NCBI GenBank assembly: GCA_018296165.2
Contig: JACKQL020000059.1
Span: 1 to 64,000 of the forward strand
Reading direction: 5' to 3'
Source: Termitomyces sp. T153
Taxonomy: Eukaryota; Basidiomycota; Agaricomycetes; Agaricales; Lyophyllaceae
Length of the DNA stretch: 64,000 bases
Position 1 is the stretch's first letter, and each line of letters begins with the position of its first letter. The position numbers and the translations under genes are program-made. The notes under the pieces are model-generated. The model ran no database searches. It saw nothing but the letters and a program-made list of their open reading frames with translations, and had not been told where the DNA came from. This document shows positions 1 to 55,908 of the stretch, piece by piece.

Positions 1-97
1 CAATATAATTAAATTTGGCGCACAAATTGGCTTCGTCGGCGAGCAGCGCCATCAAGCATGCAAGAATCTTGAGTCTTCTTTTGAGAACAGCGAGTTT

Positions 98-886
98 GTG
101 GAAACATCCATTTTTTCCCTCATTAAGCACTCCCACGCCATTGGCCCGTTCAATTCACCACCTCTCTCAAACTTTCGCTGCTCACCACTGGGTGCAGTTG
201 GGCGCAAAAGGAACCCAGGAAAGCTACGTCTCATTAACCACCTTTCCTGGCCCAAAGGCTCTTCGATCAATGATGGGATCCCAGACAAGGAGGGCCACAT
301 TATCTACGACATGTTTGCCAAAGCCCTGGAGGATATCCGTTGGCTTGGCCGCGGCACCTGGATGGCTAAACCTGATCTCAAGGATGCCTTCCGCCACATC
401 CCCATATGAGCCGAGGACTGGCACCTTCTCAGATTCAGATGGGGCTCGAGATTTTACTATCTCATTGTCCTGGCTTTTGGACTCAAGTCTGTGCCTTACA
501 TTTTTAACCTCTTTGCAGAGGCTTTGCACTGGATTATTCAGTGCCACATCCTGGCTTCCCTCCGCCACTATCTGGACAATTTCCTCCTCATGTTCTCCCC
601 CTCCACTCTCCTCTCAATGTCAAATGCTGCTGTCAAATGGGTTTCGAGCCTTGGTAAGGAGCTGGGGCTCTCTTTTCAAGGCTCCAAGATGGTTTGGCCA
701 ACAACCAGACTTGAGTTTCTTGGGCTTGAAATTGACTCAGAGGTGATGGAGGCATGGCTTCCCCTGGACAAGATGGCTTTCCTGATGGAGCTGCTTGACA
801 AGTGGTTGTCTAAGTGGAAGTGTTCCCTCCATGAGTTGCAGGAGCTCACAGGTTTCTTACAATTTGTATCCCAGGTCATACCATAA
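98..886 (+). pseudogene. Reverse transcriptase remnant of the Ngaro-like element
   Basis: One reading frame runs from 98 to 886, broken only by a TGA at 407-409. It carries the KPDLKDAFRHIPI block with the first catalytic Asp, a YIFNLFAEALHW stretch typical of the fingers/palm, and RHYLDNFLL in place of the YxDD catalytic box. The in-frame TGA stands where a CGA arginine codon would become a stop by one C-to-T change at a CpG. The second catalytic Asp is Asn, which fits GACGAT becoming GACAAT. Both changes agree with methyl-CpG decay. The frame ends in TAA just before the RNase H section, where a one-base shift is needed to continue. Confidence 0.75.
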
Positions 887-925
887 TCATGGGCTTTCCT
901 TTGATGTCTCTTTGATTTCTCCAGC

Positions 926-1430
926 TTGTTTAGCTCTCAGTTTGCAATGTGCCATATTCCCAAGTTGGTGGCCTCAGACATCTGCTGGTGGAGGACATAC
1001 AGCACTCACTGGAATGGCATTATGCTCCTAGCTCCATCACACCCTTCCTTATCTGTTCACACTGATGCAAGCAGAAGAAAGGGCATTGGCGGTGTTATCT
1101 CAGATCAGTGGTTCTCAGCATGGGTTCCACAGCACTTTTGCAGCTGGGACATCCAGTTCAAGGAGATTCTGGCCATCCTTCATGCCATACTTCGCTGGGG
1201 GGATGCTTGGTGCAGCCATAATATCACCTTCTTTTATGACAACTCTGCAGTGGTCACATGGCTCAACTCAGGGACAGTGGACTCAGTCCATGGCATGCAG
1301 GTCTTAAGGACTATCATCATGCTTGCAGCTTGTCTTGATTTTTCCTTTTCTTCAATTTGGATACCTTCTGAAGAAAATGCACTGGCTGATGCTGCTTCTC
1401 ATTTTCAGTACAGCAGGCTATTTCAACTTG
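926..1430 (+). pseudogene. RNase H domain remnant of the Ngaro-like element
   Basis: The frame reads VHTDASRRKGIGGVIS, then an FKEILAILHA block, then FYDNSAVVTWLNSG, then EENALADAASH. These are the four acidic blocks of a retroelement RNase H (D, E, D, D), all present. The section is in the same frame as the RT remnant upstream but is separated from it by indels near 880-925. The same frame stays open to about 1828 without continuing as recombinase, because the recombinase frame starts near 1459 in another phase. This is a remnant, not a working gene. Confidence 0.7.
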
Positions 1431-1458
1431 TCCCACACCTTCCCCACATGCCCTCATC

Positions 1459-3651
1459 TTGGAAATCCCAGCTCATTGGTATGAAGCACACTCTGGTCTC
1501 TTGCCTCAAGCAGCATTCTACCTGTGGCATGGACTGGCTGCCAGTACCAGGAAGACCTACTCAACTGGTCAAAAGTCCTATGTCAACTTCTGCAGACTTA
1601 ACCCAGGTTTGCTTAGTGAGCCAGGATGCTATCTCCCAGCCACAGACCAAGCCATCATCGAATGGGTCTGCTCCCTCAGGGATTGTGCTCTACAACCCAA
1701 AACTATTAAGGGTTACCTCTCCACTATTTGTTCCCTGCATGTCGATGAGGGGCTCCCTTTTGACACCTGTGAATCCAAGATGGTGCATAGAGTCATTTGA
1801 GGCATCAAATGGTTTCATGGGAGCATGAGCACAACCCAAAGCAACCAATTACTCTGAACATCCTCCAGTGGCTTGCAGCAGTAGCTGGTGATCTCTCCAA
1901 CCCCTTTGAAGCATCCTTCAATGTGGCTTTCAAAATGGCCTGGGCAGAATTCCTACAGTGTGGCAAATTTACACTTGGCCACACTGAGAAGTTCAACCCA
2001 GTGGCCCACCTCACCCGCAGATGCATGACCTTCCTGCTGACTTTCAAGTTGCCCTCTCATGTTTGGCTCAACCTCCCCACATCCAAAACCAACCTGTTTT
2101 GGAGGGGTGTTTCAATCTTGCTGGCAAGAGCACCTCCCAATGTGTCTACCTGCCCCATCTCTGCTCTGCATAGGCTGTTTACTCTTGATCCAAAGCCTCA
2201 TGATGCTCCGCTCTTTACAGGACCACATGGATCCCCTCTCTCCCATGAAATTTTCATCACAATGCTGAGCCCCAGTTATTGCTGAGCACCATTTTTTTGG
2301 CGTTTTGGACTTAGCGGCAGCTGACTACCTTGAATCCAATACAAGTCACAACACTCAGCACACGAGACCTAGCCCAAGAATTGGACTGAAGCATGAGACT
2401 TTAGTGACCACAAGACTTACTGATCATGAGAAACATCACATGGAGTCTGGAACTTGGGCCTAAATCATCAAGGCCTAGACCCTTCCTAGCAACAATTATT
2501 AGTGACCCTAGCGACTCTAGCAACAAAATGGCATTCTCTTACTATATATGGACAAATTATCAGATGCATACCTTTATACTATCATTTCTTTTGCCAAGCT
2601 TACCAACATACTTGAACGGCATCTACACTTCAGGTATTGACATCGGACTTGTTTCTTTTTAGTTCCATTCACAATTAGGTGCTGCCAAGACTTTGCCTAT
2701 GATTTTTCACTTAGTTACAGACTGACACCTTGTATGCACCATAAACACAGTGACAGACACCATTGCCAGTGGTGCCTATTTGTTTACTTTCCCATACTAT
2801 ACTTTGAAACATATAAATACTGACTGTACATAGACACTAAAAGAAGGGAACAATTAGAGAACTGCTATCTTTGAGCTTACCAGCAAGAGATTTCACTTTG
2901 CTTCTTTTGCTCTTCTATCACCTTTGACCCAGGCTTAGCAATAAGCCTTCTTGACTTCAACCTTGACTTAGTGTGGTGCCAACTGCAGGTGCCTATTTTA
3001 GTTAATCCAACTTAGCGATGCTAGCGACTATGGCTAGCAACCAGTTTACGTTTGTCCCTTGATTTTTAGTCTTCCTGTTACTGCCTTTCCTTGTCTCTAC
3101 CCTATTCCCTCACTCTCCACTACCTCTGTTAAGAGGGTGCTTTGTCTTAGTGACATTACTGGTCTTTACCCTTTTTCTTTCCTTATTGTCACTAGCAAAT
3201 TCCGCTAGCAATAGTGACTTCACTCCACAACACAACTTTTGCTCTAGTTCTCTGGGACGGTTACTGACTCGCCCTCAACTATTAACTTCCTACTGCCAGC
3301 TACCCTATCTAGTGACTAGTGTTAGGTCCTCTTTTTAGGTTTTCTGCATGACACTAGGCGGCATAGGGTACATCAACAATGCTCAGGCAGCGTCTCTCAT
3401 GCTGTGACATTGATCCCTTGTGTTTCTCTGGTCACAGCTTTTGGCATGGCACAGCCACAGCCACAGCTGCAGTGGGTTATGCTGACCACGAGATCCAGCT
3501 CTTGGGTTGCTGGCACAGCGATGCCTACAAACTGTACATTGATGTTCCCTGCAAGCGGATCCTAGGCCTCTCTTCATGTCTCCATCTGGCCACTTCTCAC
3601 GCATGCAATTTTGAGCCTCTGTCTCTTCTGTTCGCTCCCTCTATGGCTTGA
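1459..3651 (+). pseudogene. Tyrosine recombinase remnant, interrupted by a 1.1-kb insertion
   Basis: 1459-1800 encodes an N-terminal SAM-like DNA-binding part (GLAASTRKTYSTGQKSYV, then KTIKGYLSTI). 1797-2266 continues in another phase (PFEASFNVAFKMAWAEFLQCG, then HEIFITML). The C-terminal catalytic part resumes at 3376 (FSGHSFWHGTAT, then QLLGCWHSDAYKLYIDV). The HxxR box reads H-S-F-W and the downstream LLGRW-type box reads LLGCW; both Arg losses are single transitions at CpG. The tyrosine is kept. Frame breaks plus the insertion make this a pseudogene. Tyrosine recombinases of this class insert the circular cDNA of Ngaro/DIRS elements. Confidence 0.7.
2267..3375. mobile_element. 1.1-kb noncoding insertion inside the recombinase, possible solo LTR
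   Basis: The octamer acaatgct occurs at 2259-2266 and again at 3376-3383. Removing the stretch between the copies restores a continuous recombinase frame (HEIFITML followed by RQRLSCC). The duplication is therefore best read as a target-site duplication. The insert has no convincing reading frame. It has a TATA-like tataaata near 2815, and if cut one base differently it begins TG and ends CA, which would suit a solo LTR. The 8-bp duplication is longer than the usual 4-6 bp of LTR elements, and I saw no terminal inverted repeats, so the class is uncertain. Confidence 0.6.
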
Positions 3652-3819
3652 GTGCAGTTTCCCTCTCGGGATCCATGCAAGAGAGCAAGGGCGACCAAAT
3701 ATATTTTTATTTGTCCGCAAGTACATGAAATGATCTGATTATGCTTGCACCAAAAGGAACTTCGACTCCATCCACTCCCTTTCACCATATCCCTCACTCC
3801 AGCACGAGCCAACATAGAT
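3645..3819 (+). repeat. 175-bp direct repeat, copy 1 (candidate B1 of the Ngaro element)
   Basis: This 175-bp segment recurs at 4215-4389 with a constant 570-bp offset. Almost all differences are CpG in one copy against TpG or CpA in the other, with copy 1 the more decayed. Ngaro/PAT elements end in split direct repeats (A1..B1-A2-B2), and this pair fits B1 and B2. Confidence 0.8.
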
Positions 3820-4003
3820 GAACTGATCAAAAGCCTTTGATTGACATCTATGTAAGCGGCACGACCCTCCCTCGATCGTGCCTAACGCGTCGCGTACGCC
3901 CTCCTATCATATCACACCATTGTCGCACTGTTGACAATGGTCGCTTTGTCTTTTTCTCTCGACGGACTTTGTATATAATCTCAGCTACAGCTTCCCCTGT
4001 CCT

Positions 4004-4098
4004 CGTCCTGCTTCCTTTTCCCCACTGACATAGAGCTCATCAGGTCTGTTATAACTCACGTCCTGCTTCCTTTTCCCCACTGACATAGAGCTCGTCAG
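4004..4098 (+). repeat. Two 40-bp direct repeats, 55-bp period
   Basis: A 40-bp unit beginning cgtcctgcttcc occurs at 4004-4043 and 4059-4098. The copies differ by one CpG-to-CpA change (ctcatcag against ctcgtcag). They lie between the two 175-bp repeats, in the candidate A2 section. Confidence 0.8.
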
Positions 4099-4214
4099 TC
4101 CTTTTGGACTCGATTCTTTCTCTCTCCCACCCCTCATATCCACTTACCCCTCTCATTGTTTTGTTTTTCTCTTGTCTCACGTAGCACTTGTCTCGTACAT
4201 TACTCGCCTGTGCC

Positions 4215-4389
4215 GGCTTGAGTGCGGTTTCCCTCTCGGGATCCGTGCGAGAGAGCAAGGGCGACCAAATATATTTTTATTTGTCCGCAAGTACACAAAA
4301 CGATCTGATTACGCTTGCACCAAAAGGAACTTCGACTCCATCCACTCCCTTTCACCATATCCCTCACTCCAGCGCGAGCCAACATAGAT
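4215..4389 (+). repeat. 175-bp direct repeat, copy 2 (candidate B2 of the Ngaro element)
   Basis: Second copy of the segment at 3645-3819, keeping more CpG sites. It ends in aacatagat at 4389, taken as the element's right end. After it the sequence becomes AT-rich and unrelated. Confidence 0.8.
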
Positions 4390-4762
4390 TATATTTCAAA
4401 AGCAAGGTCATATTAGCATTTTGTTTATAGTCATTTGAGTCTTTAAGTAATGTTTAAAAATAAGAAATTATTAATATGATATGACCTTATATAGTTCAAA
4501 TCATCCTGGTCATTATGTGATAATCTTATATCTCAGTGGTATTTGAGTTTCCTTCAAACTCTAGATTCTTTTGAAAAACTTGATAACTCTCATTGTGAAA
4601 AGGTATTCTTACTATGGATCAATCTAACATTGTGTTTATGAACAAGTATAAGACCTCAGAATTATCTTTCTTGAAAATAAGAGGTCCCAGGCCATACATG
4701 ACCAGATATGTTAACAGTCTTTTTCGTGATGGCTTCCCTCGTCATCGGCAGCTTGTTTCTGG
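4390..4762. other. AT-rich spacer
   Basis: AT-rich sequence between the retroelement end and the first ICMT-like frame. I see no gene, RNA or repeat in it. A truncated 5' end of the ICMT-like gene may lie here but cannot be recognised. Confidence 0.5.
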
Positions 4763-14835: not shown

Positions 14836-15806
14836 GAGATGTTGCTGCAGCGATCCAGGCTGCCTGCGCTGCTAGACCCAGTGATCGACTGGGCGAAGGG
14901 TATAAAGGTGGTCGTCGTCGGCCGTGGGCGCGGTCTATGGCAGGCTTTCGTCGTCGTCGGCGGTGATGGCGAGAACGGGTCGTTACGCTGAAACTTGGTC
15001 AATGATGGTGGCACCAAACAAGAAAGCCTTGAGTAAGCTGATCGGATCTATCGGTCACCTCGCCAAGGGGACGACTTATTGTCTTCAAATCCCTCCATAA
15101 CATTCACCCGCTCTCGATATTCACCTCCTTATGGGCCACAAGCTTGCTGTTCATCCTCCCATGACTTGATGAAAATTACAAGTGCTTGAGACTCGAATCC
15201 AGTTGATCATCTGCTGACGATGATTAAGGGCCTACCACACAGCCTTGTACAGCCCTCTTCTATCCATATGGGTGTGATAATCAGCCCAGAAGATCATGAT
15301 GCCGCAATTACTGACGGCACTACCGAAGCCGTCGATCATCTCGAAATAAATTCATGATCAATGTAAAAGTAAACGTTAATAAGATATACTGGGTCAGCAG
15401 TCATACACCAGAACATCGAAGTTTATTCACCCCAACGACTTTACAGTTAATTAGCAGAGTGGTCCACTACCAATCTGAGTTCACTGGGTGTCCGAGAAAG
15501 CTTGAAAACGGGTGCAACGGCAAGATCACGGAAGCAAACTTTCGATCGTAGAAACAGTGTCGGGTCTGGGGATGACTGACGGCGACGTTCTGATGATGTC
15601 CCTAATTAGCTTTCTGTCTTCGTTCCTCGATATCTATCGTACATCGTACAGTACATCTATATTCTACATCACGAGATCTAACTCAAGTGAGATCCAGAAC
15701 GTGAACGACAGCGCATGAAAGATCTTATCACAAGTTCCTGATTTGCGACAATCTTGAGAGTCCCAGATATCTATGATATCAAATCTTGAAGCTTGATTCC
15801 TCATTC
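14836..15806. other. Cla4 upstream region, no gene seen
   Basis: Contains the presumed Cla4 promoter on its left side. I see no coding sequence. A relic of an RBR ligase gene begins at its right end. Confidence 0.4.
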
Positions 15807-15950
15807 GAGCTGAGGCCACGTTTGATAGGATTGAGTGCATAACCTGTGGCGACCTTGTTACATATTGTGGATCTTGCATAGCTGAACTTGATCCAAGCTG
15901 CAACTCAATATCCCCTCAATGCTCACAGTCATTTCCGTAATTGGATATTA
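15807..15950 (+). pseudogene. Fragment of an RBR ubiquitin-ligase gene (RING1 region)
   Basis: The segment from gaggccacgtttg onward matches the RING1-coding start of the RBR gene at 25650-27281 (about 26385-26570), including attgagtgca, tgtggcgaccttgtta, catattgtggatc, gatccaagctgcaact and catttccgta. Two internal blocks of the intact gene are missing, so no zinc-binding domain could form. It lies 8 kb from the RBR cluster. Confidence 0.75.
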
Positions 15951-25649: not shown

Positions 25650-27281
25650 ATGGGGTCTTCGTCTACTTTTCCTGCCTTCCCTTCAATGCTAGAGTTGGAT
25701 GACGACGCTGTAACATCTAGACTGATCGCTGAACTGATGCTCCAGGATATCGCTGAGATCAGCATGAAACGCAAAGGAAAGGCTCGGTTTGATGCGCCGT
25801 TGTCCGACGAAGAATTAGCATTCAGAATGCAGCGCGAATTGTGGGAGAACACCGTCAGGGCGGTCAATGACTATGCCATGGCAAAAAGCTTAAACGATGC
25901 GATAGATACCGACCATCGCTACCTTCGTACGCTTTCGATCACAGAACAAGCTGCGGAGGACGATAGGCAGGCAGCACTTGCTTTGTCCAACGGAGGGCAG
26001 CTTCCACCACAATCGGACGCTCAGCGTTTGATGGAAGATCCTTCCTTGTCTGATATTTCTGAGCCGTATGTATTGTTTTCTACTCTCTACCCTGTTTGAC
26101 GCAGTCCATGGCGTTAGAGCGACGGAGGGATCCATGCTCAACAGCAACAGTCAAGCGACTCGACAACATACCGTAGACGGTACTGTCACTAGATCTTCAC
26201 TTGTGTACGTTTGTTGCCTTATACTCTCTACTTCTATGTCTGCTCATCCATGGACCAGTATCATAGACAAGAAATCCACATTTCAGGAAAAGCCTTCTGC
26301 TGTTGAAAGCATCCTGAGTTCTCGCCTGCCGAAGTGAGCGTGATCGATGACTTATCTTTTATGATTTTTTGAACTGAGGCCACGTTTGCAAGGATTGAGT
26401 GCACAAGCTGTGGCGACCTTGTTAAAATAACTGCCTACCTCAAAGCTCCTTGTGGTCATGCATATTGTGGATCCTGCTTAGCTGACTTGATCCAAGCTGC
26501 AACTCGTGACGAGTCCCTATATCCCCCACGATGCTGCTCACAGCCATTTCCGTACTCGGATGTTATTCCCTTCTTTAGTCTCGGCCTTATTCAAACATAC
26601 AACATGAAGCGAATCGAGCTTGACATCCCAGCAGCCGATCGCATATACTGTCCAACCCCGACCTGCTCAGTTTTTCTAGGGTCATCCGCTGGTACTCAAA
26701 AAGACATTCACTGCAAGAAATGCGCCATTTCTGTCTGTTCTAAATGTCGGCAACCAGCGCATCCGGGTAATGACTGCGCCGAAAATCAATTACTCCTCGA
26801 ACTACATCAACTCGCAAAGGCCGAACGATGGCAAACTTGCCCCGGATGTAAGGCCATCGTAGAACTTCATGACGGTTGTTACCATATGACCTGCCGTTGC
26901 CGATTTGAATTCTGCTACATCTGTGCTGTTCCATGGAAAAATTGCAAATGTCCACAATGGGATGAGGATCGACTCATTGAAACTGCACGCCACAGAGTGG
27001 AACAGATAAACGTTGGTAGAGCACCGGTAGCACCACCTTTGTTCCGAGAGCGAGTTCGCCAAATGGCGAATACTCTCCGGGATAACCATGATTGTGTTCG
27101 ACACAACTGGAGGAAGCGGGACGGCGCCGCTCGTTGCGAAGAATGCAGATATCACCTGCCAAATTTCATCCTTGTATGTTCTCATTTTCTCAATTCTTTC
27201 AAAATCTCAAATGTAAAGCAGGTATGTAGGTATTGTCATCTGATGGCATGTGTGCGGTGCGCACGCAACCGATTGCCTTGA
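25650..27281 (+). CDS. RBR-type E3 ubiquitin ligase (copy 2)
   Basis: Exon 1 is 25650-26065. A small exon lies near 26118-26204, another near 26259-26338, and the RING part runs from about 26385 to 27281 with a probable 48-nt in-frame intron near 27174-27221. RING1 reads CTSCGDLV, PCGHAYCGSC, RCC; IBR reads CPTPTCSVFLG, CKKC, CSKCRQPAHPGNDC; RING2 reads WQTCPGCKAIVELHDGCYHM, TCRC, FCYICAVPWKNCKCPQWDED. A C-terminal zinc-binding-like end follows (ARCEECRY, VCRYCHLMACVRC). The N-terminal domain has LSDEELAFRMQREL and EQAAEDDRQAALALS, closely matching the RT fusion at 30712. I could not bring the junction between the third piece and RING1 into phase with strong splice sites, so the middle may be mis-modelled or broken. 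Confidence 0.75.
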
Positions 27282-28497: not shown

Positions 28498-29379
28498 AGT
28501 GTCAAAAGGACGAAGCAGTTTGAAATCTTTGATATTTGAACTGTTTAATGTTGAATCAAAATATGGATGCGGAAGGAAGAATGAAACATCCGTCTTGAAT
28601 AACATGGAACATTCACCTTTGAGGTACAAATGAAAGTAGAACACAGACCCGAGCGAGGGAAAGTAAGGACAGGGAAAATAAACAAATAAAAAAATAGATA
28701 ATTAACGAATAAAATCCCACGGAAACGGACGGACCGCCCGGATCAGCGGTCCGGGATACTTATCTGAATCAACTTTGAACTTTTTTTTCGATCGGACCAC
28801 AAGAACCCACTACTAAAGTAGCGGGAATATCTAAAAATTTAGATAAAAAACTACTAATTTTATATCGAAAGTAGCCATTGCTATCAAATAGCAACATCCA
28901 CTCCTCATCACTAACAATTCCAGCCGTTCCTCGGGGCACGAATTGAAATAAATTGGAGTTATATGTGCAGAGGCGCGCTTGGTACAAGTTATCGTGAGAA
29001 ACTGGCTTCGTCATCCTCTGATCTGACCCAGTATTAGTTTTCGTTATGCGACGATCCTCTTGCGACATTTTTAATACTGGCCAATCAGAAAGAGTGAAGG
29101 ACGGAACTCCAGAACAGGTGGCCAATTCTTGCGGTGAGTATCAATTCGGGAAGAACCTCGCAGAGAGCGCCGATGACGAATACTTATCCGCTCACTAAAA
29201 TATATCCTGTGGGTCCGAGTAACCCAACTTCTTATTACGCCTCACGAATCTTCCAATACTAGATGACTTGTCTCCAAGCGTCTTCTGCGTACGCTTCTCG
29301 CCGTTTTTTTTTTCGTTCTATATTCGAAAGTAACTCTATAGAACTCGACAGAAGACCTTCAGTGATGATCCACCTTTCG
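28498..29379. other. Intergenic region with a segment shared with 16345-16490
   Basis: No gene. The left part is the presumed BTB promoter. 28985-29130 is the diverged partner of 16345-16490. Confidence 0.45.
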
Positions 29380-30240
29380 AGAGATCCTTGTACAATGCAG
29401 TCGAAACAGTGGAAGAGCACCGAGTGAGGAACTATCCTGATCACCATAAACACAGGACCATATGTTCTCCATTCGGGCACAGCTTGGCGAGCGAAGCCGA
29501 GATAGAATATACATCAGATAGGACACATTCAGAAGAACAAAAAAGACGAGCACCCTCGCCCTCGCGAATCGTTTCTGCCGTGTGCAGGTCGAAGATGACT
29601 TCATCTCCTCACAGGTAGCTTGTTCAATCCTGGTGAACCCGAAGACATATACAACATCGATGGACTAAATGACACGGATGTCAGATACGCGAAACTATCT
29701 GGACGCTACGATGAAAGAGATGACAGGGAAGATAGAGATGGTCTAGATAGAGGCAAAAGAGACGAAAAAGAATGAACGAGATGTCTCGTTTCTGTAAGTT
29801 ACTATGCAGTGGTAATTGGTGATTCATCTGTAATTCCTCTGACACTTTCTGTAGATGTGAGTTTTCCATAATCCAATGGCTCTCGGACTGTTTTCTGCAT
29901 GCATCACGGAGATCTCGTGGTAGAAGAGTCGCAATCCTCCACGCTCCAAGCAGCCACGGATATCTACGTAGATTGCATGCAGAACTTAGTCGCGACAGCC
30001 ACCGTCGCCCCTTCTTCCGCCAATCAATCTCGCCCATCGGAGGTTTGTTATTCCTGCAGATAAACGCATCTCCTGTCCGACCTGCGTCGCCTCTACCTTT
30101 CTTGGATTCTCTCTCAAAGTACTGGAGAGTCAACCGCATGCGCACACTGTGCAACCACTGCCGGTATCTTGTCTGTGCGAAGCGGTTAGCATACGTTACG
30201 CATCCTGGGAATACTTTCATGGAAAATATTAGCGGCTGAG
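29380..30240 (+). pseudogene. RBR ligase pseudogene, related to copy 1
   Basis: The order of pieces follows RBR copy 1. There is a charged part, then a Asp/Arg/Lys linker with gatagagatgg and ctatgcagtgg as in copy 1 (24625-24680), then ctgttttctgcatgc, ggagatctcgtggt, gtagattgcatgcagaactt and gttgcgacagcca-like blocks of RING1 and an IBR remnant (catcctgggaatact). The RING1 ligands are lost: C-x-x-C is C-x-x-H and the C-G-H box is gone. Stops interrupt the frame (TGA near 29775, for example). It lies just before the RT fusion, whose N-terminus also comes from this family. Confidence 0.75.
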
Positions 30241-30711
30241 AAGCTCTCAAAAAGTTCGCTGGCGATCTTGCGTAAAAAGCCAATAGACAAGAAAACGAGC
30301 TGGATGCCTTGAGTAGATCTAAGTCATGCTATGGCTTCGGTCTGACGGGTTTACAAGGTGCACGTTGAGTGACTTCGTATACTAAGTAACTCTATATTCG
30401 AACGTTGCAAACTTCACTGAATCTGGACGACTGTAGTCTATATGCATGTTTTTGGGTCAATATTTGCCTCATGGTCACTGTCATACTGTTCCATTTAGAT
30501 TTCAGGGCTCGCGCTTAGTTTCCATTTTTGATATCTTCCCTGCTGCTGTGTCTTTTTCTTGATTTCAGATATACTTTGGCTGTTGCTCCCACGCATCTCT
30601 TCCATATGTAGTCTGAGCGGCAATCTGGCTTCTTTCTTCGACACAACGCTCCCACAGTCACAGTGAGTCAACACATGTTCAAGGTCTCTTGATCTCGAAC
30701 GTTCATCAGCT
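30241..30711. other. Upstream region of the RBR-RT fusion, no gene seen
   Basis: Presumed promoter of the 788-codon frame. No clear TATA box or other motif. Confidence 0.4.
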
Positions 30712-33078
30712 ATGAGGCAGCACTCGTATACTCAAGAGTCGGCGGAGCACGGCGGTAGCGATTCAGCTACATGGAAAGCGATCGCCGAGTTGGCGCTCGA
30801 AGACATTGCCGAAAGCCTAGGCAAGGCGGAACTACAAGGGTCGTTATCTGACGAGGAGCTTGCGTTACTCATGCAGCATGAACTTTCTATGGATACGCTC
30901 CAGACGATTGATGACAATAATACAGCAAAGGGGTTGAGTGATGCCAGCGATCGGAGATTTCAGCGCTTAGAGGGTATTCTCGACCAAGCAGCACAAGACG
31001 ATAGGCGTGCTGCACACGCTTTGTTGGATACAGGAGAACTACCTCCCCTGTCAGAAGCTCACCGTCTTATGGACCATCGACTTTTTCAAGAGCTCATCAT
31101 CCCGTACGCGGTGTCGTCTTTCATCCCTTCTTTAGCCTTGTCTGACAAGTTAAACCAAAGCTTCGAAGATCAGGTTCAATCTCAGAGCGCCTTTAACGAA
31201 GTGTTTCGAGAGGCTATCCGTGGACCTCGGTATATGCGATATAACTACTGGGGCGAGGCTGACGTCTCTATGAAGACATTAGCTGATTGGTCAGAGACCG
31301 CGGCGCCACTTCCAGGTCCTCCTGAAGCTGAACTCAGGAATCCAGTAGTCCTCAGAACAGTGAAAGCAAATCCGTCTCTATTTAAGATCGTAACACCGAT
31401 CGAAGTAGATATCTTTGAAGAACTCCTCATCGATCATCCAAACCCCGCATTTGTCGCCTCGGTTTGTAAAGGCCTTCGAGAAGGATTTTGGCCATTGGCC
31501 AATACACATATAGGCGAGTATCCAGACAAATACGACGGCTCTCTTAAAATGCCGCGTGATACACAGAAGGTCGCATTTCTGCGAGAACAGAGGGACATAG
31601 AGATTGAGAAAGGAAGGTTCTCGCAATCATTTGGCAAGAAGCTGCTTGATGGGATGTATAGCTCCCCCATTCACGCAGTCCCCAAGCGTGGAACTACTGA
31701 TTTTCGTCTCGTCACCGACCATTCAAGGGGAAAATATTCCTTGAATTCTATGATTCGTTATGATGATATATCGGGGATGCCTTTCGATAACATGAAACAT
31801 CTTGGCGAGAAACTCCTTGCGATCCATGCAAGCGGGCGTAAACTCATGTTGTGGAAATCAGATGTTGCCGAAGCTTATAGGCTCTGTCCTATGCACCCAC
31901 ACTGGCAGATCAAACAAGTCGTCACTATAGATGGCTATCGCTACATCGACCGAAATAATACGTTTGGAGGTCGGGCCTCTTTCAAAATATGGGGTTCTGT
32001 CAACAGCCTTGTCATGTGGATCGCTGAGCACGTATTGGAGATTGACCGACCTTTTTGCTACAACGATGACACGTACGGAGTTTGTGATGCTGATGACACT
32101 AAGTTTTATGAGCCCTATGGACGTTTCATGCCGCGGAATCAATGTGAGCTCCTCGAGCTTTGGGACTTACTCGGTATACCCCACAAAGAGAAGAAGCAGC
32201 TATCCGGGAACCCTTTGACCATAATCGGTATCGAGGTCGATGCCAACGAGATGACTATGACACTTCCAGCTCACGCAAAGGAGGCGCTCATCGCAGAACT
32301 AAGGAGGTTCATTGCTGAGCCAAAAGGCAAGGCTCCTTCGTTTAGCTATAAAGAGTTCCAGCAGTTTGCAGGCGGGATGAACGCAGCGTTGAACGTGTTT
32401 CCTTTGCTTCGTCCGGCGCTCACCAACATCTTTGCCAGAATCAGTGAAACATATCGCACCTTTGGCGAATCGAGCGCAGATAAACAGATACAGTGCGATA
32501 GTACGATTAGGAGTGACCTGGACTGGGCACTCAAACACATCAGGAATTCTGAAGGTATCAGAATCTTGCAGGATGCTCGGGCATGGAAACCAGAGGAGGC
32601 CGACATCACCGCGTATACTAGCTCAAACCTCAAATCCATGGTATTCTGGTATCCTGATCTTAGCGTCGCATATTGTTTCGATACCCCCAATGCACCACCG
32701 AATGAGCATTTCCTCGAGGCGCTCTGTGTTACGTCAGCTTTTCTTGATGCAGCATCCCGCCAACGATCTTCTGCTAAGATAGTCATTTATACGGAAAACA
32801 CAGGAATAGTGAAGATGTTTGACTCGTTTCACTGCTCTCCTATATACAACCCCTTGTTCAAAGCTGTAGCCGATTCAATGATTCAGCACAAACACAGGCT
32901 GCGAGTTCTTCACATTTCCGCGAAGAAAAATATCGTTCCAAACCTTCTTTTGCGGGAATCGGTTTCTGAGGCCAGAAAACATGTTTCTGAAATAGCATCC
33001 TTCAAACCCTTGGATAAGCTGCTCGGGCCGTTGAAGGACAATCTTACCGGGGAAAAGATGCATCGTGGCACCGTGTAG
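30712..33078 (+). CDS. Fusion of an RBR-ligase N-terminal region with a retroelement reverse transcriptase/RNase H-like region
   Basis: One uninterrupted frame of 788 aa. Residues 18-131 match the N-terminal domain of RBR copy 2: AIAELALEDIAES, LSDEELALLMQ, QAAQDDRRAAHALL and LPPLSEAHRLM. Residues about 160-620 are a reverse transcriptase of the type common in mushroom genomes: NPVVLRT, SLFKIVTPIEVDIFEELLID, SPIHAVPKR, DFRLVTDHSRGKYSLNSMI, KSDVAEAYRLCPMHP with Asp384, CYNDDTYG with Asp452/Asp453 (YxDD box), and LTIIGIEVD. Residues about 632-745 are RNase H-like, but three of four acidic sites are changed (Ser637, Glu695, Asn744; Glu669 kept). No RING, IBR or recombinase follows. The long open frame argues for recent origin or selection. 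Whether it is expressed is unknown. A strict alternative is a retroelement inserted into an RBR pseudogene in frame by chance. Confidence 0.8.
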   Translation: MRQHSYTQESAEHGGSDSATWKAIAELALEDIAESLGKAELQGSLSDEELALLMQHELSMDTLQTIDDNNTAKGLSDASDRRFQRLEGILDQAAQDDRRAAHALLDTGELPPLSEAHRLMDHRLFQELIIPYAVSSFIPSLALSDKLNQSFEDQVQSQSAFNEVFREAIRGPRYMRYNYWGEADVSMKTLADWSETAAPLPGPPEAELRNPVVLRTVKANPSLFKIVTPIEVDIFEELLIDHPNPAFVASVCKGLREGFWPLANTHIGEYPDKYDGSLKMPRDTQKVAFLREQRDIEIEKGRFSQSFGKKLLDGMYSSPIHAVPKRGTTDFRLVTDHSRGKYSLNSMIRYDDISGMPFDNMKHLGEKLLAIHASGRKLMLWKSDVAEAYRLCPMHPHWQIKQVVTIDGYRYIDRNNTFGGRASFKIWGSVNSLVMWIAEHVLEIDRPFCYNDDTYGVCDADDTKFYEPYGRFMPRNQCELLELWDLLGIPHKEKKQLSGNPLTIIGIEVDANEMTMTLPAHAKEALIAELRRFIAEPKGKAPSFSYKEFQQFAGGMNAALNVFPLLRPALTNIFARISETYRTFGESSADKQIQCDSTIRSDLDWALKHIRNSEGIRILQDARAWKPEEADITAYTSSNLKSMVFWYPDLSVAYCFDTPNAPPNEHFLEALCVTSAFLDAASRQRSSAKIVIYTENTGIVKMFDSFHCSPIYNPLFKAVADSMIQHKHRLRVLHISAKKNIVPNLLLRESVSEARKHVSEIASFKPLDKLLGPLKDNLTGEKMHRGTV

Positions 33079-33474
33079 GTGGTTTGGTTCCACAGCAGCT
33101 GCTCCGGTGTCTTGTCTCGTCTCGTCTGCGATTTACTACACATGTGTCAATCAGTCGAATTTCCTCTTTTCTTTGTCCCCGATCTATCCTCTGATTTCAT
33201 GAACGTCCCAACCTTGATACTACCCCTGAGTATGCATTCCTTGATAGATCAAGTGTACTATGTAATGAATTCATCAAGTTTTGTCTGTTCAGTCTCCAAG
33301 GTCATTTGAAGCGCTAAGCGCCCGATTTGCCTTGGCGAGTTGTAGAGCAAATACATTGCTTCATATACAGAACAGTCTTTCCAATTCTAAAACGACACTA
33401 CTATACATATGGGGGATTCAGGAATATTCATGATCAATGTCTGCAGTCCTTGAAAGTTATATTGTCCGTAAAGT
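33079..33474. other. Intergenic spacer
   Basis: Convergent spacer between the fusion gene and the glycogen phosphorylase stop. No gene seen, and I found no RBR RING-coding remnant here. Confidence 0.45.
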
Positions 33475-36400
33475 CTAGTTCTTCGTCACGGGAGTTTTCT
33501 CAATGTTCCAATAGCCCTCCGCATACTCATTGATAGCGCGATCCGAGCTGAATTTGCCCATCTACCGGAAAAGAAAATAAGGAAAGACTCTACCACAAAA
33601 TAGGTTAAACAGACCTTGGCGGTAGTCCTGATAGATTTCTTAATCCACTCTTCCTTATCGCTGTACGCCTCGTCGACCATAGTCAACGCCGCGATATCTG
33701 AATGAAGAGGTATGAGAAGCGTAGAAGCAGTTTGAAGCGATGCCACTTACAAGAATCGAAATCATCAGTGATCAAATAGTAGTCCCCTTGTCTGATGGTA
33801 TTGAGAAGCCTATATACATATTACAATGTGAGCAGGATCTCAAACGGTTAAAAGTTATGCGAAAGACGGACGGTTCGTATACTTCACCATCACCAAACAA
33901 ACCCGCAGAAACCTGGTTAAGAACGTGTGCTAGCGCGGGGCACTTCTGCTCAATGGGCATAGGGTGGTACAAGTGTTCATGGCGCAAGTCCTCTACAGCG
34001 CTATAAGTAAGCAAAGATTGTAAGGACTGCTCAAAAAGTATTGCGACAGAGACGACATACGGGGTAAGGTGTCCGAAGAAGACTGCAACGAAGAGAGTTT
34101 GTTATCACGAGCTCAAAACATAGGTAATATTCACTCACAAACGTTGCTCTCCCCGACCTCCTCCGCAATCTCGATATTAGCACCATCGACCGTACCCAAC
34201 AACAGTCCTCCATTAAGGCAGAACTTCATGTTCGACGTTCCAGACGCCTCAGTACCTGCAGTAGAAATATGCTGACTGATATCCGATGCGGGGATGAGGA
34301 CCTCTGCGAGGGAGACAGAGTAGTCGGGGAGGAAGTATAGTGTGAGGTAGTCTTTGGTGTCGGGGTCGGCGTTAATGATACGAGCGACGTTGACGATCAA
34401 ACGGATTGTCTATGGATCGCTCACGATTAGAGGACGCAAAAGATGGTCAAGAAAGCCTGCTCACCAACTTCGCGATATAGTCTGCAAGAACATCAACAGA
34501 CGGTCAGGTCTGTCCGGAGAGGCAAGGTAGTGAGTGTGCTTACATGCGGGAGCAGCCTTTCCAGCGAAGAAGACGACACGATTGTTGACTTTTTTCCTCT
34601 GCGCGGGAGTCATGTTCTTGAGAGTGAGGTATCTCTGCGCGAAATGTAAGGATCAATTATTTTGGCATCAAACAAGAACGCACATGTATAACTCCCAAGA
34701 TGTTCAGAGTTTGACGCTGCAGCATTGCCAATTAGCAAGAGAGCACTATGAACATACAACACAAACCTTGTATTCATGTAGACGCTGTACAACCGTCAAC
34801 ATTCAGCTAGAAACTCGGGTCAACGAAAGCGACAACACACCTTAATTTGCACATCAAACATCGCGTTCGTATTGACTGTCAACCCAAGCGTCACCTGCAC
34901 ATGGTGCGCCAAACGCTCCTTATTACGCTGCTTGATCGCGGCCCACTCCTTGCGGAACGCCTTGTCTTCCGCGAATGGAAGGAGACCCTCAAGCTTGGTG
35001 AGGTCTTTGAGCCAGACGTCTTTGTCTAGTTTGAGTGTCTTGGAGATGAGCGCGCTGAGCTCGTGGTTGCACTGGAGTCTAGGTGTGAGCATTCGGCAGT
35101 GGAGAATGACGAAGAGAACAGTACCTGATCGAGCCAACGACGAGGGGTAACTACAGAGAGTTTCGTCAAATTTTGTCTTGCATGTGTGTCGATCACTTAC
35201 TGCCGTTAGTGACATTACCGAACCTGAAAAAGAAACGATCAATATTCTGCATCTCAAGAAATCACGAAATATCAATCCTACTTGCTGATCCCCTCAAACT
35301 CAACAAAGTCCTTGAGAATCGTCGTTTGCACGAGCTCGCTGTGCAACTGTCAAAATACCAAATCAATAATCAACTCAAGGCGATTAGAAGATCAGTCGCA
35401 CCTCAGCTACACCGTTAACCTTACGGCTACCAATACACGCGAGATACGCCATCCTGACTTGCTTGGGATGACCCTCTAATTAAAGATTAATGACACAATT
35501 TCCTGACCCAAATTGACTTGAGATACCCACCTTCAATAAGAGACATGCGGGCCAGCCGATCGCGATCCATTGGGTACTTCTTCTCCACAGCTTGAAGGAA
35601 GAACCTTTCGCATATTTGTTAGCTTATCAGGTCAACACACCATAGATATCAAGCTTTTGACATACAAGTTCTGCCAAGCACAATTACCGTAAGTACGAGA
35701 CAGGGAACGAGAAAAAGAAAGAGCTCACTATATCATAAATGATCTGCATATGCCTCGGCAACACATGCTCAATCAAATCAACAGGCCACTTCTCCAGCGC
35801 TTCCTGTTCATCAGGTTCAGTGAACGAAACTCAAGAGGTAGGTGTGGACGCACGGGAAGCACAGTGTGGTTAGTATAAAAGAACGTATTGGTGACGATGT
35901 TCCATGCCTTGTCCCACGAAAGATCTTCCTCGTCAATCAGGATGCGCATGAGCTCGGGAATCGCGAGTGTGGGGTGAGTCTATTAAACTCATCAGCACTG
36001 AATGGAGAGTCTCGTGGGGCGGAAAGAACAGACGTCGTTGAGCTGAATAGCAACATCTAAATAACGTGAAAGAGCAGTTAGGAGTGCGGCGAAATGCAAG
36101 GGTGGTGAGCTTACACTCAGGAAATTCGCTAATGGCCTTGCCAAGGTTCTTGAAGCGGCGAAGGATATCTGCGAGACTTGCAGCGGTCCAGAAGCTAGTG
36201 AAGAGAGTGAAAAAGACGAGAGTGATGAACCGGAGGAAAACTGACTATTGTTGTTTGAGACGGAGTTCTTTGCCAACTGTGGGATATTAGAGCTCCATCA
36301 TGTCGATGAATACAAGACTTACAAGTCCTGTCACACAAACGTCAGCACAGAGACAGATCAACGAGAGGGTGACAAGAACTCACGTATGATCATTTGGATA

Positions 36401-54342: not shown

Positions 54343-54916
54343 GAAAACGGACCGTTACGGCGAAATCGATCCGACACTATACACACACCACCGTCGGTCG
54401 GTTTACCACACCGAACTTCTTGCGGTATGCGTATCGAACTTTGCCCAGAGAAGGGCAAGTTCAAATGTAAAAAAATCGGGTATTAGCATATGGCGCGTCC
54501 CTGGAGGCTGTGATCGTGCCCTCCACCAGTTGTTCAGTATGGGGGCGGAAGTTGTGTATGAGCGATGCTCGATAAGTACATAGTCAGACGTAACGAGCGA
54601 TGAATTAGACACGCGTCCCATAGAGCGTGTTCGGTTCCGACCTTCAAGATTCTTTCGAGTCATGCGTAGAGACCTTCTTTCACTAGATTTTTGGCTGTTG
54701 CTACAACAAACCCGATGTCCAAAATTCTTCGAGGCATTGCACGGAGACATTTTTGTTACACCAGGGAACATCTAGACGCGTCGGAACCGTAGTGACAGAT
54801 ACTGGATAAAAATCTGATCCGTCCTGCAGCGATGTTCAAGGGGATCGTTACAATTCTATTGGTCTGCAGGAATCTGGGCTGGTTCGTTGTTGACACGGTG
54901 CAGGTATCTGAGTTTC
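54343..54916. other. Gene-free spacer
   Basis: No gene, RNA or repeat supported between the diverged tandem duplication and the three-copy array. Confidence 0.4.
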
Positions 54917-55908
54917 GCCAGTTCTCAATAATGAAGTCGGATGGATACCCGATTATCCGGTCCGCAGAGCAATGTAATCATGAAATTCAATCAAGACAAC
55001 TGAATAAGCAGCGTCAATAATGATTTCAGAAGAGTCGTCAACTTACACATCGTCCTTTGGAATTTAGTCAAGTGCAGTGCTTATCCCTATGTTTAAAGAG
55101 ACCCCGGTCGATTCGGGAAATTGCTCAGGAAGGATGAGAAGCTGACCAACATACATTGACTTCCCAGTGGAAGTGCGATGCATCCGTATATGCTAGATCT
55201 GGTCTGAACTGTCCACTGATACACGATTCTTTTCTCTTTTTTCACTTTCCAACGCCAGTTCTCAATAATGAGATCGGATGGATACCCGATTATCCGGTCC
55301 GCAGAGCTATGTATCCATGAAATTTGATCAAGACGACGGAATAAGCAGCGTGAATAATGATATCAGAAGAGTCATCAACTTACACATCGTCCTTTGGAAC
55401 TTAGTCAAGTGCAGTGCTTATCCATATGTTTGAAGAGACCCCGGTCGATTCGGGAAGAGAAGCTTACCAACATACATTGACTTCCCGGTGGAAGTGCGAC
55501 GCATCCGTATATGCTAGATCTGGTCTGAACTGTCCACTGATACACGATTCTTTTCTCTTTTTTCATTTTCCAACGCCAGTTCTCAATGATGAGATCGGAT
55601 GGATACCCGATTATCCGGTCCGCAGAGCTATGTATCCATGAAATTTGATCAAGACGACGGAATAAGCAGCGTGAATAATGATATCAGAAGAGTCGTCAAC
55701 TTACACATCGTCCTTTGGAACTTAGTCAAGTGCAGTGCTTACCCATATGTTTGAATAAACCCCGGTCGATTCGGGAAATTGCTCAGGAAGGATGAAAAGC
55801 TTACCAACACACATTGACTTCCCGGTGGAAGTGCGATGCATCCGTATATGTTAGATCTGGTCTAAACTGCCCACTGAAACACAATTCCTTTCTCTCTTTT
55901 TTTCATTT
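54917..55908. repeat. Three-copy tandem array, unit about 321-337 bp
   Basis: Copies start at 54917, 55254 and 55575, each with gccagttctcaat. They share tacccgattatccggtccgc, cttacacatcgtcctttgg, ccccggtcgattcggg, cttcc-gtggaagtgcg and a pyrimidine run at the end. The middle copy lacks about 18 bp (attgctcaggaaggatga). Copies are highly similar, with no conserved frame. Confidence 0.92.

Follow-up and report, generated by a model that had tools for sequence, protein, structure and literature searches.

A candidate host-captured Ngaro-type reverse transcriptase behind an RBR ligase-like exon in Termitomyces

The window, by which we mean the whole 64-kb stretch of DNA analysed here, belongs to a Termitomyces genome of 72.4 Mb in 307 contigs. 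On its plus strand, positions 30712-33078 form a frame of 788 codons with zero internal stops, whose product is designated P0001. It measures 803 codons from stop to stop. The preliminary description, which had noted a stop-free frame of 788 codons, is borne out. Residues 1-131 (30712-31104) are a diverged paralogue of the first exon of an RBR ubiquitin ligase gene, helical and of low model confidence. After a linker, residues 172-520 (31225-32271) are a reverse transcriptase (RT) polymerase of the Ngaro type, and residues 521-772 (32272-33027) are the connection and a degenerate RNase H-like region whose active site is lost. At the end of the front part, the segment 31104-31149, which is open in frame, may once have been intron 1 of the ancestral RBR gene. 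Two RBR features lie upstream on the same strand: RBR gene 2 (25650-27281), whose splicing is predicted, with a predicted exon 1 at 25650-26065 and an open frame with RING/IBR matches at 26373-27281; and, immediately upstream of the P0001 frame, a pseudogene resembling RBR gene 1 (29785-30341), which contains stops. No tRNA or Rfam features were found within the 64-kb window.

In a Pfam scan of P0001, no family reaches its own cut-off and RING1-IBR-RING2 is absent. The RT part likewise gave no family above cut-off in Pfam, NCBIfam and PADLOC scans, and no matches in PDB sequence searches with the RT. Nine members of the RT family scanned against Pfam were themselves barely recognised. Structure prediction used an alignment of 75 of the 121 RT proteins and 8 of the 15 front-part matches. 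In the AlphaFold model, 505 of the 788 residues have a pLDDT of at least 90, nearly all of them within residues 190-770; the front is helical and averages 27-64 per block, and residues 108-185 lie largely below 50. The best 50 of 1073 Foldseek matches in the PDB are all RTs, with those of foamy virus and HIV at the head. The lowest E is 5.5e-15 and the probability is 1.00 across the best 50, while whole-chain TM-scores are low (0.26-0.51).

Relation to Ngaro elements

Of 7998 candidates scored against the RT part, 473 proteins reached an E of 0.001 or better; the best 120 of the 473 were used, 119 of which define the conserved columns discussed below. Residues 172-772 of P0001 match this RT/RNase H family and also Ngaro-type open reading frames (ORFs) of the same genome. 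The preliminary description of a mushroom-type RT with an RNase H-like region stands as regards homology, although the RNase H active-site residues have been lost. P0001 is 52% identical to P0003 from Lyophyllum shimeji and 33% identical to ORF1 of L015, an element of its own genome. Judged by sequence, the RT of P0001 is of the Ngaro (tyrosine-recombinase) type. Among the RT matches listed, the closest is P0002 from another sample (419 of 609 residues identical, 69%), and the named proteins among the best 120 of the 473 include no Termitomyces protein. In an RT tree of 23 of the 121 proteins and four rows from the same genome, P0001 and P0002 group together (support 99/94) and are sister to two relics, L016 and L017 (97/93). 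L016 consists of gag-like, RT and ORF2-like pieces.

L015 has an unbroken RT-RH ORF1 and an overlapping ORF2 of 340 codons. ORF2 has no Pfam match, and we take it to be the tyrosine recombinase from its position and from an H-x-x-R...Y pattern. The repeats of L015 are arranged A-pol-B-A-B, and its repeat and ORF layout matches the definition published for Ngaro elements (PMC3783388). L015, L018 and L022 are near-identical Ngaro-type copies (ORF1 93-97%), far from the putatively captured RT. Only L015 is unbroken in ORF1, where L018 has six stops and L022 has one; the A-pol-B-A-B repeats are present in L015 and L018 and not in L022. The window itself holds a decayed Ngaro-like element at 9-4390, with an RT piece at 164-1480 and an ORF2-like piece at 3424-3561, to which a pair of 95% direct repeats (3645-3819 and 4215-4389) may belong. 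Another repetitive feature is a direct-repeat array at 54795-55900, with a spacing of 321-337 nt and two copies 97% alike. Many environmental relatives (P0010-P0121) come from contigs roughly 4-5 kb long, and some have as many as 17 member sequences; these sizes and counts are as expected of full-length elements or transcripts.

The P0001 locus differs from Ngaro retrotransposons in several ways: no gag, recombinase or repeats were found, the RNase H site is lost, one copy was found, and an RBR exon stands in front. With 30600-33400 as a DNA query, the 72.4-Mb genome yielded only the query itself, a result that does not prove rarity. A protein search found at least 59 places, including P0001 itself and the RBR exon, and 46 of the 59 contain stops; the longest of the other RT copies are at most 49% identical, and short pieces reach 60%. 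Queried with L015 ORF2, the window gave a match only at 3424-3561 and none at the P0001 locus. The front parts of P0003, P0007, P0008 and L015 ORF1, used as gag queries, had no window match at E 0.001. No flanking repeats of 25 nt or longer were found within 29000-34500.

These searches bear on the reading that P0001 belongs to a low-copy, non-autonomous Ngaro lineage that is still mobile in trans, with RNase H supplied by other elements. The unbroken L015 and its near-identical relatives in the same genome could offer such help. On the other hand, the genome DNA search yielded no second copy, the locus has no detectable flanking repeats, the P0002 cluster has one member on one contig, and L015 and L018 are distant from P0001 on the tree (branch 1.94). 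We consider continued mobility very improbable.

Conservation of the polymerase and RNase H regions

Columns at least 97% identical in the 119 relatives were treated as near-invariant. P0001 has lost 1 of 69 such columns in residues 172-520 and 12 of 36 in residues 521-775; in P0002 the losses are 2 of 69 in the RT and 11 of 36 in the C-terminal part. When each row was left out of its own consensus and one unnumbered column was included, the C-terminal losses became 13 of 37 and 12 of 37, respectively. The other family members have lost on average 1.13 RT and 0.65 C-terminal columns, with a maximum of eight of either; the RT of P0001 is therefore as well conserved as in the rest of the family, whereas its C-terminal part is not.

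The differences between P0001 and P0002 are distributed in the same lopsided manner. With columns of 12 or more gaps left out, and with p-values to be read in the knowledge that conserved columns are not independent observations, the two proteins differ in the RT at 7 of 121 conserved versus 68 of 224 other columns (Fisher p 2e-8), and in the RNase H region at 17 of 41 conserved versus 53 of 105 other columns (p 0.36). Under the same caution as to p-values, changes at 90% columns found only in the P0001 lineage number 1 of 121 in the RT versus 7 of 61 in the C-terminal part (p 0.002), and those found only in P0002 number 4 of 121 versus 8 of 61 (p 0.02). The two proteins are 52% identical in RNase H where they are 78% identical in the RT, while in the 511 of 6786 family pairs with an RT identity of 72-80% the RNase H identity averages 71% and is never below 61%.

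The residues of the two active sites follow the same pattern. Asp384 (codon 31861-31863) and Asp452 and Asp453 (codons 32065-32070), by their motifs presumably the catalytic aspartates of the RT, are kept in both P0001 and P0002. The RNase H active site is presumably formed by positions 637, 669, 695 and 744. Residue 637 is Ser in both proteins and Asp in 115 of the 119 relatives; residue 669 is Glu in P0001 and Ser in P0002; residue 695 is Glu in P0001 and Asp in P0002, as in 118 of 119 relatives; and residue 744 is Asn in P0001 and Asp in P0002, as in 115 of 119. By these residues the RNase H site of P0001 is broken. The two proteins share the loss at 637 and several further ones, and so their common ancestor was probably already devoid of RNase H; this activity would then have been lost before the split from the P0002 lineage.

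The intact aspartates also bear on the function of the polymerase region. A captured but non-enzymatic protein, in which the RT fold serves as a binding module, for example in a restriction factor coupling element RNPs to an RBR ligase, would agree with the RBR-derived front and with the decay of both sister Ngaro copies examined (L016 and L017). Mere binding would not need Asp384, Asp452 and Asp453, however, and their retention in both P0001 and P0002 makes such a module a rather unlikely reading.

The sister relics show what happened to related copies. L016, with seven stops, has lost 11 of 35 columns in the RT and 9 of 35 in the C-terminal part; in L017, with nine stops, the corresponding losses are 15 of 47 and 8 of 22. 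Since P0001 and P0002 are lopsided and the relics have lost columns in both halves, the polymerase half appears to have been kept by selection after mobility ended; this is our main evidence, and as a protein-level proxy it suggests purifying selection on the RT part.

The openness of the frame was compared with neutral decay simulated by substitutions only over half of the P0001/P0002 distance. Only 0.2% of 2000 whole frames stayed stop-free, and the observed openness thus exceeds chance; the front 165 codons alone remained stop-free in 25% of cases, and their openness by itself is weak evidence of selection. RIP-like decay was considered as a candidate and set aside; the RIP index of the P0001 frame resembles that of the window. 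A further standard is provided by the adjoining RBR pseudogene (29785-30341), which is 80% identical in nucleotides to RBR gene 1 over 29877-30001 and is an internal control for local decay.

The locus might still be read as an immobile remnant of a transposon whose frame happens to have stayed open. It would then be a lone, truncated Ngaro RT close to RBR genes that does nothing for the host, and the degenerate RNase H part and the other Ngaro relics in the window (about 9-3561) and the genome are in keeping with this. Against it stand the simulated frequency of open frames, the conservation of RT columns since the split from P0002, the seven and nine stops of the two sister relics with losses in both halves, and the stops in the adjoining pseudogene. 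A chance remnant is accordingly judged unlikely.

The RBR-derived front part and the junction

The N-terminal resemblance to the neighbouring RBR ligase, proposed earlier for residues 18-131, was confirmed: in a single comparison, residues 17-121 are identical to the translation of 25650-26066 at 55 of 111 positions (E 1e-28). Searched with the front part, the genome gave the query itself, RBR gene 2 (E 2.7e-22) and a single further piece that was not significant (E 0.64); the reverse search with the RBR exon 1 found two places. Residues 1-165 matched none of the proteins sized 0.55-1.75 times 788 amino acids at E 0.01. The predicted exon 1 of RBR gene 2 is identical at 137 of 140 residues to P0122 from Termitomyces sp. 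Mn162. The front has relatives among the RBR ubiquitin ligases of Lyophyllaceae and their kin, whose exon 1 is related to residues 1-131; those ligases carry RING/IBR, whereas the P0001 frame has no RING/IBR match. With RING/IBR queries from genes 1 and 2, nothing convincing was found from 31100 to 33500. Elsewhere in the window, 15804-15949 is a fragment of an RBR RING region, 89% identical to gene 2 over 57 nt.

In a tree of 11 of the 15 front-part matches and two window rows, P0128 and P0131 cluster with residues 1-131 of P0001, apart from RBR gene 2 (support 98/99). P0128, a protein of 152 amino acids from a third sample, is 55% identical to the front and has the start region in common with it. 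P0131, from Termitomyces sp. T159_Od127, is 47% identical and annotated as a front-only protein. Their contigs are short (552 and 2126 nt, respectively), with no RT visible on either. Because the front forms a clade with proteins of other samples and away from the RBR gene, a recent insertion of the RT into an RBR gene is unlikely.

The surroundings of P0002 seem to be similar. P0125, which is 71% identical to exon 1 of RBR gene 2, and P0002 are single-contig proteins of the same source, each from a contig of 11,318 nt, and so probably lie on one contig. The P0002 RT thus seems to adjoin an orthologue of RBR gene 2 in another species, and vertical inheritance of the putatively captured RT is the best reading. 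Scans of IMG/VR and GTDB contigs revealed no relative.

The junction at 31104 reads CC/GTACGC, in the same place and phase as CC/GTATGT of RBR gene 2. CTGAC lies close to the 3' end of 31104-31149, with a CTGAC/AAG end at 31149. The segment resembles intron 1 of gene 2, an equally good alignment being obtained in 1 of 100 GTAYG control windows; given this likeness and the shared position and phase, the junction may derive from an RBR intron that has come to be read as coding. Removal of 31104-31149 by splicing would lead to an immediate stop. The fusion would be preserved, too, if 57 nt (31104-31160) were spliced out in frame.

Among the samples compared, the fusion in one frame is found only in P0001. 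The P0002 frame begins at the RT, and none of the 15 matches of the front-part search is a front of the P0001 type from a contig of the P0002/P0125 size. Beyond the junction, P0128 stays open for about another 20 codons, whose residues resemble those of P0001, until either a stop codon or the edge of the contig is reached. Of the chimeric RBR-RT gene proposed in the preliminary description, the RBR exon 1 paralogue in frame ahead of the RT is confirmed, and the production of a chimeric protein is less sure; likewise, the search for the same fusion in relatives found the whole of it only here and a front that is open across the junction in P0128. In-frame translation of the front part would follow from the continuous frame.

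It is possible, though we lean against it, that the frame does not encode one protein. The RT would then be selected with its own start, and the RBR-like front would be an adjacent or alternatively spliced product, an arrangement compatible with RT capture. The start of P0002 at the RT, the donor-like site at 31104 with the CTGAC/AAG end at 31149, and the front-only annotation of P0131 favour separate products. The continuity of the frame in P0001, the open stretch of P0128 beyond the junction and the 57-nt splice that would keep the fusion speak for a single one.

Proposed capture and its parallels

We regard P0001 as probably a host-captured (domesticated) RT, a single-copy gene that selection has maintained for the sake of its polymerase. 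The earlier suggestion of a captured host gene is strengthened by the one copy found, the lack of detectable mobility parts, the RT-specific conservation since the split from P0002 and the probable shared synteny. Several points weigh against it: relaxation of one half might mean that the whole protein is slowly decaying, the P0002 frame starts at the RT, the named proteins among the best 120 matches include none from Termitomyces, and a few family members have also lost C-terminal columns (eight each in P0103 and P0114, six in P0118), albeit fewer than P0001.

If capture is accepted, a duplicated RBR-ligase gene of the Termitomyces lineage would have acquired a Ngaro RT/RNase H frame behind its exon 1, with gag, recombinase and repeats not carried along. 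The RT would have been kept as a single-copy gene for the polymerase, and RNase H lost before the P0002 split. In our working model, P0001 would copy an RNA template into cDNA, catalysis being suggested by the intact motifs; lacking RNase H, it would leave the RNA:DNA hybrid or hand it to a host RNase H. The RBR-derived helices might bring the RT to partners common with the neighbouring ligase, which is a guess. Catalysis, partners and template of P0001 are all predictions.

Ngaro retrotransposons of Agaricomycotina (DIRS order) contribute an RT/RNase H homologous to P0001. The rvt genes and telomerase are RT-related cellular genes, as P0001 is proposed to be; they are presumably of a different RT lineage. 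Few captured reverse transcriptases are known. In mammals, LAP2alpha and ZNF451-L2a join part of a DIRS1-like element to host gene parts and have been kept by selection (PMC4495291); a gag ORF was captured there, whereas in P0001 it is the RT polymerase. The RVT protein of N. crassa has terminal transferase activity (PMC3520738). Titles and abstract openings of the open PMC literature, among the matches listed, contain no description of a captured Ngaro RT or of the P0001 gene. As far as these sources extend, capture of a part from the DIRS order (LAP2alpha gag) and cellular RTs (rvt) are already known, and a captured Ngaro polymerase would be new.

With some reserve, P0001 could be the first case in which a host has captured the polymerase of a retrotransposon of the tyrosine-recombinase type. 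It would be selected for template-sparing cDNA synthesis on a ubiquitin-ligase-derived tether in termite-farmed fungi and their kin, and might be an RBR-recruiting enzyme of defence or RNA memory. For comparison, the same genome offers sister copies that have decayed and, at a greater distance, an unbroken Ngaro family. If this is true, a Ngaro RT with a decayed RNase H and an intact polymerase would be a clean case of host-selected cDNA synthesis.
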